Shown one piece after another: positions 32,692-49,771 of a stretch of 54,679 bases of DNA (positions within the stretch are counted from its first letter, which is position 1; every line of letters begins with the position of its first letter). The DNA comes from Anaerolineae bacterium (GTDB taxonomy: Bacteria; Chloroflexota; Anaerolineae; Aggregatilineales; J027), in contig JAIOHL010000257.1 in assembly GCA_019913005.1 (NCBI GenBank), positions 1-54,679 on the forward strand, read 5' to 3'. A model generated the notes under the pieces. The model was given only the letters and a program-made list of their open reading frames with translations, was not told where the DNA came from and did not search any database. The position numbers and the translations under genes are program-made.

Positions 32692-33257
32692 GCTGATTCA
32701 TCCGAATCCCTGTTTAAAAATCGGGCGAGTCGCCTCAGCGCCCGAAACTGTAGGGCCTTGATTGCACCCTCTTGTTTGCCCATCAATGCGGCTGTCTCAT
32801 CCAGATTATGTCCCTGTATAAACCGCAGCATCAAGACCTGCTGTTGTTCCTCGGTCAAGTGCTCCAACGCCTGCAAAATGGTACTTTTTTCAATGTCTGC
32901 CATCACCGCTTCTTCCGTTGAATCACCTGCTGCGTGCAGGGTCAACTGGTCAAATGAGGTGGTGGGACCGCGTCGTTTTTCTCGTCGGTAGTGGTCAATA
33001 ATCAGACCACGCGCAATATGATAAAGCCACCCCAAAAATGGGACACCACGTTCCTCATATTTGGGCAGCGTTTCAATTGCTCGAATAAACACTTCACTGG
33101 TCAAGTCCTCAGCGAGGGCCGTATTCGACACCCGCAGATAGACGTAACGATAGACCTGACCGACATGGCGCTGGTAGAGCGTCGAAATTGCCTGCTGATC
33201 ACCTTGTTGAGCAGCCCGAACTAGTTCTGCATCCTCAGGGAGATGGGGATTCGCCAC
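32688..33257 (-). CDS. ECF RNA polymerase sigma factor
   Basis: This 189-residue protein has sigma region 2 (YRYVYLRVSNTALAEDLTSE, VFIRAI, FLGWLYHIARGLIIDHYRRE) and region 4 (LTEEQQQVLMLRFIQGHNLD, ETAALMGKQEGAIKALQFRA). It has no N- or C-terminal extension. It is translationally coupled to the downstream membrane partner. The target regulon is unknown; its own promoter in 33258-33478 would be the place to look for an autoregulatory ECF motif. Confidence 0.93.
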   Translation of the reverse strand: MANPHLPEDAELVRAAQQGDQQAISTLYQRHVGQVYRYVYLRVSNTALAEDLTSEVFIRAIETLPKYEERGVPFLGWLYHIARGLIIDHYRREKRRGPTTSFDQLTLHAAGDSTEEAVMADIEKSTILQALEHLTEEQQQVLMLRFIQGHNLDETAALMGKQEGAIKALQFRALRRLARFLNRDSDESA

Positions 33258-46377: not shown

Positions 46378-49008
46378 TTATTCGCGTTCCTCCGTGCCGA
46401 AGAAATGAATGAGTAGATCATCCAGCAGGTTGCGCCAGTTGTTCCACGACCGCCCCTCGTTGGCTTGTGCGGTCGTAAATTGATAGCCATGTTGCTCCAT
46501 CACAGTTCGGAGCGGGGATAAATCAATATCCCATTCCGGTATGCCCGAACTCAACCAGATATTGAGCGGACGGATAGGCTCTTGGCTATACAAATCCAGA
46601 AGGGTCTCGTCGAAAGACGGTGACTGCGCTCCAACCAAACCAAATTGAACGGAGTCGGGTAGATTTTGGACCGCTGTAAAAAGTGCAGCCTGTCCACCTA
46701 ATCCTCCCCCCAAAATCAAGCGCCTTTCAGGACGGGCATCTGTAGAGTAGTGCTGATCTATGTATGGGACTAATTCAAAGGATAGGAAGTCCGCAAACGC
46801 CTCATTATTTGAATACTCCTCAATAGCTCGGTTATCCGTTTGATCGTAGGGGTTGACGGTACCTACACTAACCAATATTACTGGTTCAATTTCGCCAGCC
46901 GCAACTAGATTATCTAAGGTGGTCTCAAAATCCAAAGCACTATAACCTTGTCCCGCTAATACTACCACTATGGGCAATTTATTCAGTTCTGCATAGTTTG
47001 CCGGAGTACTGACGGAACATGGAACAGAATAGCCCAAGTTCACAGAATCGATCCTGAGCACGTCTCGTTGCCCTGTTTCGGTAACTCCTCGGTACCATGT
47101 CCAGTCCGATAAATCAAAGTCGGGCATTCTCAGTTCAGAGGCAGGTAAATCTTCACGGTACATAATATTGCGTTCTCGGTTAGCAGGGTCAAAAATCCAC
47201 GAATCTGTATGGTTCAGATAAATTCTATAACCAAAACGAAAATCGGTTGGGAAGTGGGCAACCGCAATCCACAAATCCGTACCTAGCAGAAGTTGGCCTT
47301 GAATTGCAGCATCCTCCGACCAACCATTAAATTCAGTACGCCATTCTACGTATGATCCCTCTCCCCGGTACAAAAATACCACTGTGTCACCCTGTATATA
47401 AGGAATTTGATCGGCAGCCTGCCATTCTGCCCATAGATTGTCCAATTGAGCCTGACGTTCATAGAAGTCAGCAATTGTCATGAGTGTGTTTAGCTGATCG
47501 GCTAAGGTAGTGGGTATATCTGCGGGAGCAACTTCAATTGGGATAGGTGGAAGGCCACTTGTGGTGTCATCTCTAGGGGTATATTCCCATGGAACTATGG
47601 GCATATCCACATAATGGATAATCCCATTGGAGGCAATCACATCGCCTTTGGTGACTTTCGCCCGATTATTGACAACTAGTTCATGCGGGTCAGCATCATT
47701 CCAACGGGCGTTGATGGTATTGACGAATTCGTGCCCCTCTGCCCCCCACAAACTACGAACAACCTCATGCTTGGCTAACTGCTCCTGCGGCCACAATCCG
47801 TTCAAAAGGTGAGCCAACACAAAATTTACAGCCGCTTCATGGGCCTCTGGAAGAAATGAATCCAAGTCTCCGATTATAGCACCCATAGAGGCATCACTAG
47901 GAACAAACAGGGTAAATGTTCCCATGTTCTCACAAATGGTATACTGAATCCACGCCCCTGCTTTGCCTTCAAGACTGTCCACCACCCGCTTGAAGTAACT
48001 CGCATCAGGGTTCTCCGCCAGCAAATCACATCCTGTTGGAAGCGTTTCGATACTGTCTATGCCCTGATAGGCCGTTAGGAATGATCTGGCCGTCACCAGC
48101 GGGGCATCCAAAATATGCACGTACCCGTTGGCGGCTTCAATGCTTTCCGTGATATGTGCCAGTCCATTGAGCAATAACGCACCGTTGGCATCATAGCCCA
48201 GTTGGAGTTTGCTGCCATAGCTGTAGCCGCCGCGTTCAAAATAGCCGCGTACATTCGGGGGCAGGGCCGCCAATTGGTCACGCGACCACGCATCATTCAC
48301 GACATAGCTGAATAGATAGCCCTCCCAATCCGACGACCCGTCCGCAATGATCGGCGTGATCTCAGCTTGAATCGGCTCAAAAATACGATTCGGGAGGACA
48401 AAAATCGTGATGGGTTCGCTTTGGGTAACGTTGGTTAGCCACCCGCTGGCGGCAATCGCGGCGGCAAATTGACTGAGATCAGGATCGTTTTGCAACACGT
48501 CATAGGCTGTCGGCAAAGTGGGACGCGGCGTCCCGGTCTGGCCGAGCAGAGTCGCCTGCCCAGTATGATAAACGATTGGGTCAGAATCATCGGTTGGGAG
48601 CAGCCCATCAATGCCCTGCCCCAAAACGAATGCGCCAAACAGCACCAAAATTAGGGCGGCCACCAACGCCAATGAGCCACGTAGATAGCGGATTTTCAGC
48701 AAGGACGGATAAGCATGATTTAACATGGATGGGTTCTCCGGTTCTGGTAGGGTCTTGGTAGAAGTAAGGGGAGCAATCGGCACAATCCGGCGGCTGGTGG
48801 ATGGCGCAGGCAGTTTTAGGGGCGGCAGCGTGGCGGCAGAATCTTCGGCGGCGGCTTGCACGGCCTGTGCAATAGCTTGCCATTCTTTCAGATCGGCTTG
48901 GCAGGCAGGGCAAATAGCCAAATGCGCCACGATCACGGTCTGCTCGGCTTCAGTCAACGTGCCATTAATGTAAAACGGCAGCAGGTCACGTGGGTGATTA
49001 TTCAGCAT
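46378..49008 (-). CDS. Anti-sigma factor fused to two fasciclin domains and a degenerate esterase domain
   Basis: This 876-residue protein has an N-terminal zinc-binding anti-sigma domain (NNHPRDLL, then HLAICPAC), a transmembrane helix (LRGSLALVAALILVLFGAFV, about 109-129), fasciclin-like domains at about 165-305 and 315-475, and a C-terminal Fes/IroE-type esterase domain (about 545-876) with a CBM48-like lead-in (GEGSYVEWRTEFNGW). In the esterase part the nucleophile elbow reads GGGLGG, with Gly at the Ser position (769), and the His motif reads EGRSWNNWR, with Arg in place of His. It is thus probably non-catalytic. The start at 49008 is set by AGGAG nine bases upstream; the gene overlaps the sigma gene by eleven bases. 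It is likely a surface sensor that binds a ligand and releases the sigma factor. Confidence 0.85.
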   Translation of the reverse strand: MLNNHPRDLLPFYINGTLTEAEQTVIVAHLAICPACQADLKEWQAIAQAVQAAAEDSAATLPPLKLPAPSTSRRIVPIAPLTSTKTLPEPENPSMLNHAYPSLLKIRYLRGSLALVAALILVLFGAFVLGQGIDGLLPTDDSDPIVYHTGQATLLGQTGTPRPTLPTAYDVLQNDPDLSQFAAAIAASGWLTNVTQSEPITIFVLPNRIFEPIQAEITPIIADGSSDWEGYLFSYVVNDAWSRDQLAALPPNVRGYFERGGYSYGSKLQLGYDANGALLLNGLAHITESIEAANGYVHILDAPLVTARSFLTAYQGIDSIETLPTGCDLLAENPDASYFKRVVDSLEGKAGAWIQYTICENMGTFTLFVPSDASMGAIIGDLDSFLPEAHEAAVNFVLAHLLNGLWPQEQLAKHEVVRSLWGAEGHEFVNTINARWNDADPHELVVNNRAKVTKGDVIASNGIIHYVDMPIVPWEYTPRDDTTSGLPPIPIEVAPADIPTTLADQLNTLMTIADFYERQAQLDNLWAEWQAADQIPYIQGDTVVFLYRGEGSYVEWRTEFNGWSEDAAIQGQLLLGTDLWIAVAHFPTDFRFGYRIYLNHTDSWIFDPANRERNIMYREDLPASELRMPDFDLSDWTWYRGVTETGQRDVLRIDSVNLGYSVPCSVSTPANYAELNKLPIVVVLAGQGYSALDFETTLDNLVAAGEIEPVILVSVGTVNPYDQTDNRAIEEYSNNEAFADFLSFELVPYIDQHYSTDARPERRLILGGGLGGQAALFTAVQNLPDSVQFGLVGAQSPSFDETLLDLYSQEPIRPLNIWLSSGIPEWDIDLSPLRTVMEQHGYQFTTAQANEGRSWNNWRNLLDDLLIHFFGTEERE

Positions 49009-49561
49009 GGGGTACATCTCCTAACAGTTGGCGGAGGCTTTGGCGGGCACGATGCAGGCGGCTTTTCAGGGTGTTCAGCGGCACCCCCAATTGACTGGCG
49101 GCGTCTGGCCCGGACATCCCGCGAAAAAAGACCAATTCGAGGGCCTCCTGTTGTTCGAGGGGCAGTTGGCGAATGGCCTGTTGCAGTGCATCCTGTTCGG
49201 CGGCTTGGTCAAAGACGGCAGCCGGATTCGATTGGTCGGCGGGATCAGGGCGGTCATCATCAAGCGGGGCATGGTCGGGAGGACGACGGCGTTCACGGGC
49301 TTTGTTGGCTTGGCGTTTGGCAATGGCGATTAACCAAGTCCGGACTTGGCTTTCACCCCGAAATCGCCCGGCTGATCGCCATGCCGCCAACATCACATCT
49401 TGCAGCACTTCTTCGGCCAGATGTCGTTCGCCTACTTCATGGATGAGCACATTGAGCAGGGCCATGCCGTGCCGCGCATACAACTCATGCAAAGCCGCCA
49501 CGTCCCCGTGTGCCATCGCCGCGATCAGTCCTTGATCTGGGTCGGTGGATCGGTTTTGCAT
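48998..49561 (-). CDS. ECF RNA polymerase sigma factor
   Basis: This 187-residue protein has sigma region 2 (HELYARHGMALLNVLIHEVG, VLQDVMLAAW, TWLIAIAKRQANKARERR) and region 4 (RQLPLEQQEALELVFFRGMS, GVPLNTLKSRLHRARQSLRQ). The start at 49561 has AGAGGTGG upstream; a longer form adds 14 residues. It overlaps the anti-sigma gene by eleven bases, the usual arrangement of an ECF sigma with its membrane antagonist. Confidence 0.93.
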   Translation of the reverse strand: MQNRSTDPDQGLIAAMAHGDVAALHELYARHGMALLNVLIHEVGERHLAEEVLQDVMLAAWRSAGRFRGESQVRTWLIAIAKRQANKARERRRPPDHAPLDDDRPDPADQSNPAAVFDQAAEQDALQQAIRQLPLEQQEALELVFFRGMSGPDAASQLGVPLNTLKSRLHRARQSLRQLLGDVPHAE

Positions 49562-49771
49562 GAACCACCTCTCTTGGTGTGATTGGTTGGCCGAATGTGC
49601 CATGCCGGATGTCTGTTCCTTTCGCTCATATCTGCATTAGTACCGGATTTGCAGCGAAAGGTTGCATCTTCTCCAAAACTACCTCGTTCGGAGATTTTAG
49701 TATTTTTTACGTACCGATTATAATTAGTAATATCGTTTCAAAAAACAAACAAGTGGGCTTTGGAGGGAACC

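Follow-up and report, generated by a model that had tools for sequence, protein, structure and literature searches.

The window analyzed here, the full 54,679-nt stretch of Anaerolineae contig JAIOHL010000257.1, carries on its reverse strand the gene of an extracytoplasmic function (ECF) sigma factor followed by that of a zinc-finger anti-sigma factor with a giant outer part, in which two FAS1 (fasciclin) domains and an esterase fold stand behind a single predicted membrane helix. The two genes and the domains of the anti-sigma protein are arranged as follows:

48998..49561, reverse strand: ECF sigma factor gene, 187 residues, regions 2 and 4 (Pfam matches and orthologs)
46378..49017, reverse strand: anti-sigma factor gene, 879 residues, starting 20 nt inside the sigma gene
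48898..48990, reverse strand: zf-HC2 anti-sigma domain, residues 10-40 (32.6 bits, cut-off 22.2), with the motif H32-x3-C36-x2-C39
48616..48678, reverse strand: the one predicted membrane helix, near residues 114-134 (highest 19-residue mean hydropathy 2.69, against 1.41 in the rest of the protein)
48094..48483, reverse strand: FAS1 domain 1 (Fasciclin, 35.8 bits, cut-off 22)
47590..47937, reverse strand: FAS1 domain 2 (Fasciclin, 57.6 bits, cut-off 22)
47059..47382, reverse strand: stretch before the esterase, residues 546-653 (weak Enterochelin_N match, 14.7 bits, under the cut-off of 27.1)
46381..47040, reverse strand: esterase-fold domain, residues 660-879 (Esterase, PF00756, 67.0 bits over residues 660-818, cut-off 22; ferulic acid esterases in the PDB)

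The sigma factor matches the Pfam families Sigma70_r2 (1.7e-11, 44.2 bits) and Sigma70_r4_2 (4.1e-15, 55.6 bits) with no region 3 match listed, the domain composition of an ECF factor. The anti-sigma frame is unbroken, with zero internal stops, and its N-terminal H-x3-C-x2-C motif precedes the membrane helix as in class I zinc anti-sigma factors; the 20-nt gene overlap is that of a single operon. The outer part comprises ~745 residues, and the whole protein matches Fasciclin in Pfam over two stretches at 84.8 bits (cut-off 22), the separate domain scores given above being those of a profile scan of the genome to which the window belongs. An initial annotation of this DNA, made from the letters alone, had paired an ECF sigma factor with a zinc-finger anti-sigma factor bearing two fasciclin domains within some 740 outer residues, and had raised the concern that the gene might be an artifact of a sequencing error; the pairing, the zinc-finger N terminus and both fasciclin domains are borne out by scores over cut-off, and the concern is removed by the orthologs. 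Full-length anti-sigma orthologs of 888 residues, each in one open frame and 69-71% identical, are found in three of the four other genomes of the genus (G001, G003 and G004), so that the architecture is real and not a sequencing fusion.

The pair is conserved as a unit within the genus: sigma orthologs (96, 90 and 90% identical) occur in three of the four other genomes, and all four genomes having the sigma gene, the window's own included, retain the anti-sigma gene with it. The fourth other genome, G002, yielded no sigma ortholog at E<=1e-27 and no full-length anti-sigma ortholog. The three orthologous loci lie in records named CFX5 (QMIT01000005.1), CFX10 (JABFGB010000033.1) and DTUCFX7 (JAJTXY010000007.1), which are titled as Chloroflexi or Anaerolineae metagenome-assembled genomes (MAGs). 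In CFX5 the anti-sigma gene adjoins the region that matches the DUF4260 gene of the window; ~0.7 kb of extra sequence lies between the two in CFX10, and ~4 kb in DTUCFX7 (L060, between ~10709 and 14833). Beyond the genus the outer part is found piecemeal. Residues 317-879 gave matches at E<=1e-30 in 12 of the 154 genomes of the order among the candidates scored, but over their whole length in only four, all within the genus, the others covering ~residue 499 onward. The N-terminal 332 residues matched 12 of 400 sampled genomes of the phylum at E<=1e-6, the window's own included, and the zinc domain was joined to FAS1 in none of these 400 outside the own genome, the listed matches ending by residue 132, before FAS1. 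At most nine first-look candidates per genome were scored in the order and five in the phylum, a depth at which distant cases may escape. In the order, 20 regions containing large FAS1 frames were read, up to three of the longest frames in each; none of these frames, several of which are cut by contig ends, shows H-x3-C-x2-C in its first 120 residues.

The sigma factor itself belongs to a larger group whose members are associated with quite different outer parts. With the window sigma factor as query, 34 sigma genes of the group were found at E<=1e-27 in 32 of the 154 order genomes, and analysis of the region downstream of all 34 with Pfam gave outer parts of at least five kinds:

4 loci: FAS1x2+esterase (the window copy and G001 by Pfam scan, G003 and G004 by alignment)
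6 loci: Peptidase_C39_2 with TPR repeats (over cut-off)
7 loci: WD40-type propeller (L119 and L126 barely over a cut-off)
2 loci: SnoaL (Pfam)
7 loci over cut-off and 3 below it (L041, L043, L136): SH3_3 (Pfam)
1 locus, L132: sigma factor fused directly to a helix and a PD40 propeller (Pfam)
4 loci (L123, L128, L133, L134): none found, or cut by a contig end

A tree built from the 34 sigma factors plus an outgroup unites the FAS1+esterase loci in a single clade (99/95), next to which stands a SnoaL-type locus (99/96). Mapped on this tree the outer-part labels change 10 times, at least 7 changes being unavoidable, compared with 22.2 in shuffles, a count that treats unassigned loci and the outgroup as labels; the branches of L131, L132 and the outgroup are long. 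The limits of the group within the phylum are not sharp: 13 other genomes in the phylum sample contain sigma matches at E<=1e-27 that are 36-45% identical. On the basis of relatives with such different outer parts, the outer part of the window protein looks like a modular surface sensor. Loss of enzymatic residues may extend to the C39 type: the residue preceding GPA in the six C39-type anti-sigma proteins (L035-L040) is S, S, D, A, Q and S, where active C39 peptidases have Cys; TPR matches dominated when a C39-type protein was searched against the PDB, and the Cys loss consequently rests on the general C39 motif and the sequences. At L132 (G080:C27) the ECF factor of the group shares one open frame with a membrane helix and the PD40 propeller, and no anti-sigma domain is present; by its sequence this fusion is a possible membrane-tethered sigma factor.

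That differently folded outer parts recur in the same position downstream of a single sigma group is also what makes it improbable, in our judgment, that the outer domains merely ride on the membrane anchor and have no part in signaling, with the zinc domain answering a cytoplasmic redox or metal cue. Zinc anti-sigma domains of the RsrA/ChrR type can sense such cues, and ChrR is the anti-sigma relative of solved structure that is listed in the search with the whole protein, albeit weakly (E 0.037). However, the zinc motif is absent from all seven propeller-type proteins, a feature that fits an outside sensor better than a zinc-site sensor. Several other proteins of the group also lack it, and the available text of a published survey describes class I anti-sigma groups as likewise mixed for the zinc motif (PMC7406223).

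The esterase-fold domain was assigned in the initial annotation to a Fes/IroE-like family. The fold is upheld by the PF00756 match, but an enterochelin esterase of the Fes/IroE type was rejected: the NCBIfam model PRK10439 scores 50.4 bits against a cut-off of 222, the Enterochelin_N match likewise falls short of its threshold, and the active-site residues of the window copy do not agree with such an enzyme. The solved esterases that sequence searches picked up carry annotations as ferulic acid esterases and other proteins of CE1 type, and by this similarity the domain is distantly CE1/feruloyl-esterase-like. Alignment with 1jjf/1jt2 and the ferulic acid esterases places its active site at two altered residues:

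46702..46704, reverse strand: residue 772, Gly (codon GGA) at the position of the nucleophile Ser
46450..46452, reverse strand: residue 856, Arg (codon CGG) at the position of the catalytic His

At both positions the orthologs, the stand-alone homologs and the solved esterases have Ser and His. The nucleophile motif reads GGGLGG in the window copy and GNSLGG, GNSLAG or GTSLGG in the orthologs, and the His motif EGRSW where the others have EGHSW; the G-x-S-x-G and catalytic His of an active serine esterase are thus missing from the window copy and from it alone, all three orthologs keeping both residues. The window esterase is therefore probably catalytically dead, while that of the three sister strains may be active. 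Stand-alone homologs of the C-terminal part, 41-45% identical, occur in all five genus genomes and keep Ser and His; each begins with a signal-peptide-like sequence, which fits an outer place of work.

The two substitutions fall within a segment of the outer part that appears to differ in its history from the remainder of the operon:

46430..48050, reverse strand: outer-part segment spanning FAS1 domain 2 and extending almost to the C terminus, where a divergent allele seems to have taken the place of the original (nucleotide identity down from ~0.9 to ~0.55 and up again, synonymous sites, and GC content at third codon positions, GC3)

Identity to G001, followed in 60-nt steps, is 0.82-1.00 from the sigma gene to ~48060 and then 0.45-0.87, mostly below 0.7, to ~46420; the final 60-nt step of the anti-sigma gene is 0.85-0.92 identical to all three orthologs. 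Synonymous differences per site rise at the segment start from 0.10-0.33 to a saturated 0.70-0.83 against all three orthologs, which differ among themselves by 0.26-0.57 in the same segment. GC3 falls from 0.60 to 0.45 in the window copy only (orthologs 0.59 to 0.58, 0.59 to 0.55 and 0.59 to 0.58), and long flanking BLAST segments are syntenic at 85-89% identity. The drop and return of identity, the saturated synonymous sites, the GC3 shift and the syntenic flanks are together the pattern expected from replacement by a divergent allele, and 46430-48050 looks replaced in this manner through recombination. A separate divergent patch is found in the esterase core of G004.

That the segment is instead a strain switch in a metagenome assembly, with no natural recombinant behind it, appears quite unlikely. 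The genomes do appear to be draft metagenome assemblies, the window's own being in 365 contigs, and a mixed population can yield allele switches at conserved k-mers. On the other hand the segment keeps the reading frame of a single gene at either edge, its GC3 departs from that of the adjoining sequence, and another copy, the G004 ortholog, has a divergent patch of its own; in any case the allele would be real, derived from a neighbor strain. Also rather unlikely, though less so, is that the outer part of the window strain has merely lost catalysis and drifts, the orthologs displaying the normal function, hydrolysis of an outside substrate. The retention of Ser and His in three of three orthologs and their loss in the window copy only are in favor of such decay. 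Against it, the segment is open over 563 codons with divergence that is mainly synonymous, and the ratio of nonsynonymous to synonymous divergence (dN/dS) lies at 0.10-0.15 for FAS1-2 and the esterase in every comparison with a finite dS, a value made rough by saturated synonymous sites; the replaced segment accordingly looks constrained, apparently over most of its history.

Upstream of the sigma gene lies a candidate for the element from which the operon is transcribed:

49636..49665, reverse strand: predicted ECF-type promoter, GCAACC-N17-TACTAAT

Both boxes are identical and the spacer variable in all four orthologous loci. In the wider group the commonest dyads were GGAAC with ACTA or with TGTC, each in 11 of 32 upstream regions compared with at most 4 in five two-base-block shuffles, although near-copies among the 32 regions raise these counts. 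At least 10 of the 12 positions of GGAACC with GACTAA or GTGTCT are found at 29 of 34 loci, scored without a shuffle control; L120, L122 and L132 have no GGAACC-type site, and L121 and L125 reach 9 of 12. A 17-nt spacer characterizes the C39 and FAS1 types, six of seven propeller types and three more loci, and a 15-nt spacer 12 loci, mostly SH3. The FAS1-type promoter itself scores 10 of 12, and since by a rough estimate one locus reaches 10 by chance about 1 time in 10, it rests on its conservation in the four orthologous loci. Another candidate, TGAAAC...CGGT, was dropped because a regular expression found it in 7 of 32 upstream regions at scattered positions.

In the genome scan for the sigma factor's promoter motif that the initial annotation had proposed, the exact pattern GSAACC-N18-ACTAAT matched a single site in every one of the four genomes having the system, namely the operon promoter, and three sites in G002, which is without it; allowing one mismatch produced no excess over the reversed control. 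Of eight genomes with loci of the 17-nt type, five have exact matches to the GGAACC form, five of the six matches being the sigma promoter, with none in the controls. For the 15-nt type in ten genomes, six of fifteen exact matches are sigma promoters of the group and nine lie elsewhere, with four in the controls. These matches bear on a further explanation, which we consider unlikely, if the least so of the alternatives: the outer part might be an output as much as a sensor, and any envelope signal that frees the sigma factor would raise the output of the FAS1/esterase surface protein encoded with it, which would act as an adhesin or a matrix enzyme on an anti-sigma anchor, with no wider regulon. 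FAS1 domains are adhesion modules, the exact motif is found at the operon only in four of four genomes with the system and predominantly at the sigma promoter in the 17-nt type, and a secreted FAS1 gene lies just upstream of another ECF gene in the same genome. Yet the motif is strict and self-derived, and in three of the eight 17-nt-type genomes it fails to match even the own promoter, which departs from the GGAACC pattern; most exact matches of the 15-nt type lie away from the sigma promoters of the group; and an esterase without catalytic residues would be odd for an enzymatic output.

The architecture, its conservation as a unit, the active-site loss, the mosaic outer part, the diversity of modules and the conserved promoter-like element are computed features of the locus and its relatives, and we read them with moderate confidence as a surface receptor-switch, an ECF/zinc anti-sigma pair with a modular outer sensor that works in an RsgI-like manner. 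The cytoplasmic zinc domain would hold the sigma factor, and the membrane helix would link this domain to the outer sensor, which consists of two FAS1 domains and a serine-esterase fold. A ligand on the surface or in the extracellular space, for which a polysaccharide or a matrix component bearing esters is the likeliest candidate, would on binding there expose the anti-sigma factor to regulated intramembrane proteolysis and so free the sigma factor, which would then transcribe its own operon from GCAACC-N17-TACTAAT and thereby, as proposed, raise the supply of both sigma factor and receptor. The esterase of the window strain would serve as a catalytically dead binding module, and the outer part as a whole would be exchangeable, with C39-like, propeller, SnoaL and SH3 parts in related loci and distal alleles recombined within the genus. 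Inhibition of the sigma factor, the outside location, ligand binding, proteolytic release and autoactivation are steps that we infer; release by intramembrane proteolysis is assumed by analogy with RsiV, RseA and RsgI. Site-2 protease (Peptidase_M50) homologs are encoded in the genome, the best at 5.3e-50. The initial annotation had likewise seen a trans-membrane sensor that frees the sigma factor, and this is supported by the anatomy, by retention of the unit in four of five genus genomes, by the ECF-type promoter and by the exchangeable outer parts of relatives; it is qualified by the loss of Ser and His, by the recombinant look of the outer part and by the fact that the principle has already been described for RsgI.

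A number of observations weigh against the receptor-switch. Peptidase_M50 homologs are also present in 14 of 14 control genomes. A structure prediction of the whole protein from four sequences failed at a mean pLDDT (predicted local distance difference test) of 35.2, so that the outer domains rest on sequence profiles, and a PDB sequence search found no solved relative covering the whole protein. The FAS1+esterase form was found in four genomes, all drafts and apparently MAGs, and what the window copy represents may be an allele in decay and not a pseudoenzyme kept by selection. With respect to the promoter, the pattern was derived from the operon itself and its kin; a second stretch, ~70 nt upstream of it, shows a similar degree of conservation, hence conservation is not confined to the promoter boxes; and the reversed control of GSAACC-N18-ACTAAT gave 2, 5, 4, 2 and 2 exact matches in G000-G004. 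A wider regulon at one mismatch was not found in the four genomes, the 23, 19, 15 and 17 matches being rarer in each than those of the reversed control (74, 52, 47 and 47), and consequently nothing can be said of weaker targets.

More tentatively, and with less than even confidence, one ECF group of this order can be viewed as a platform on which new receptors arise. Under an autoregulatory promoter, the sigma factor and the cytoplasmic domain of the anti-sigma factor would have stayed constant while the outer part was exchanged as a whole from genus to genus (FAS1+esterase, C39 lacking its Cys, propellers, SnoaL, SH3) and allele-wise within a genus, enzyme folds repeatedly becoming dead sensors. 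In the FAS1 and C39 branches the switch would control little or nothing beyond itself, and its output would thus be the surface protein.

The closest parallel is RsgI of Clostridium (Acetivibrio) thermocellum, for which the accessible text of two reports describes large exchangeable outer sensors including CBM, PA14, GH10, peptidase-like and NTF2-like modules, a GH10 domain of RsgI6 with very low activity that is read as a sensor, and autoregulation of SigI-type sigma factors (PMC12203970, PMC4711584). By these sources SigI/RsgI resembles the window pair in its membrane anti-sigma factor, where an N-terminal domain for sigma binding is joined through one helix to a large outer sensor that can be exchanged. 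The window pair, an ECF factor with zf-HC2 and FAS1 and esterase modules, differs in kind: SigI lies outside the ECF family, and RsgI binds its sigma factor through a different domain and contains an autocleavage domain in the periplasm. No RsgI domain is found among the Pfam or NCBIfam hits of the window pair, which by its ECF sigma factor and zf-HC2 inner domain is not an RsgI member. Two ECF systems differ in other respects: the outer part of RsiV in Bacillus subtilis is much smaller and without adhesion or esterase modules, and the FAS1 proteins MPT70 and MPT83 of Mycobacterium are separate regulon products, whereas in the window system FAS1 is fused to the anti-sigma factor itself. As far as the available text of the reports goes, RsiV/SigV is similar as an ECF anti-sigma factor that acts as lysozyme receptor with regulated intramembrane proteolysis (PMC4183432, PMC5014341), and SigK/RskA as an ECF/anti-sigma pair tied to secreted antigens, with mpt70 and mpt83 in the SigK regulon (PMC7509140). 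ECF52 SCO4117 of Streptomyces coelicolor, in the accessible part of its description, likewise brings together ECF regulation, a zinc-finger domain, a membrane helix and, in the periplasm, a domain that binds carbohydrate (PMC8999054), but has sigma and anti-sigma factors in one polypeptide and other modules.

No description of a FAS1 or esterase anti-sigma fusion was found in the open-licence PMC literature; the remark in the initial annotation that it knew of no described regulator with such an architecture stands to that extent, although the large exchangeable outer sensor as such was already known from RsgI. Modular anti-sigma surface receptors, familiar from cellulosome regulation, would hereby be extended to ECF/zinc anti-sigma pairs in the Chloroflexota, filamentous bacteria of wastewater and anammox sludge. 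A natural set of many outer parts on one intracellular switch should be useful for learning how outer ligands open ECF switches and for building sensors, and the window esterase, which lacks Ser and His, can be set against the orthologs retaining the two residues for a direct test of sensing versus catalysis.

Other ECF genes occur in the window and elsewhere in the same genome. A second ECF-like sigma gene of the window, at 32715-33239 on the reverse strand, is 28% identical to that at 48998-49561. The FAS1 gene just upstream of a different ECF gene (L099, G000:C164, 1467-3870) has a signal-like N terminus; at its position G003 (L101) has a gene of equal length and N terminus, and G002 (L100) another gene. 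Frames of at least 100 residues in 18 other ECF regions of the own genome contain no zinc motif in their first 80 residues. Three other ECF genes are followed by long proteins of 771 residues (L118, 3030-5345), 528 residues (L117, 166-1752) and 500 residues (L108, 3057-4559); each has a single predicted membrane helix, none has a zinc motif close to its N terminus, and they are perhaps more large anti-sigma-like proteins.

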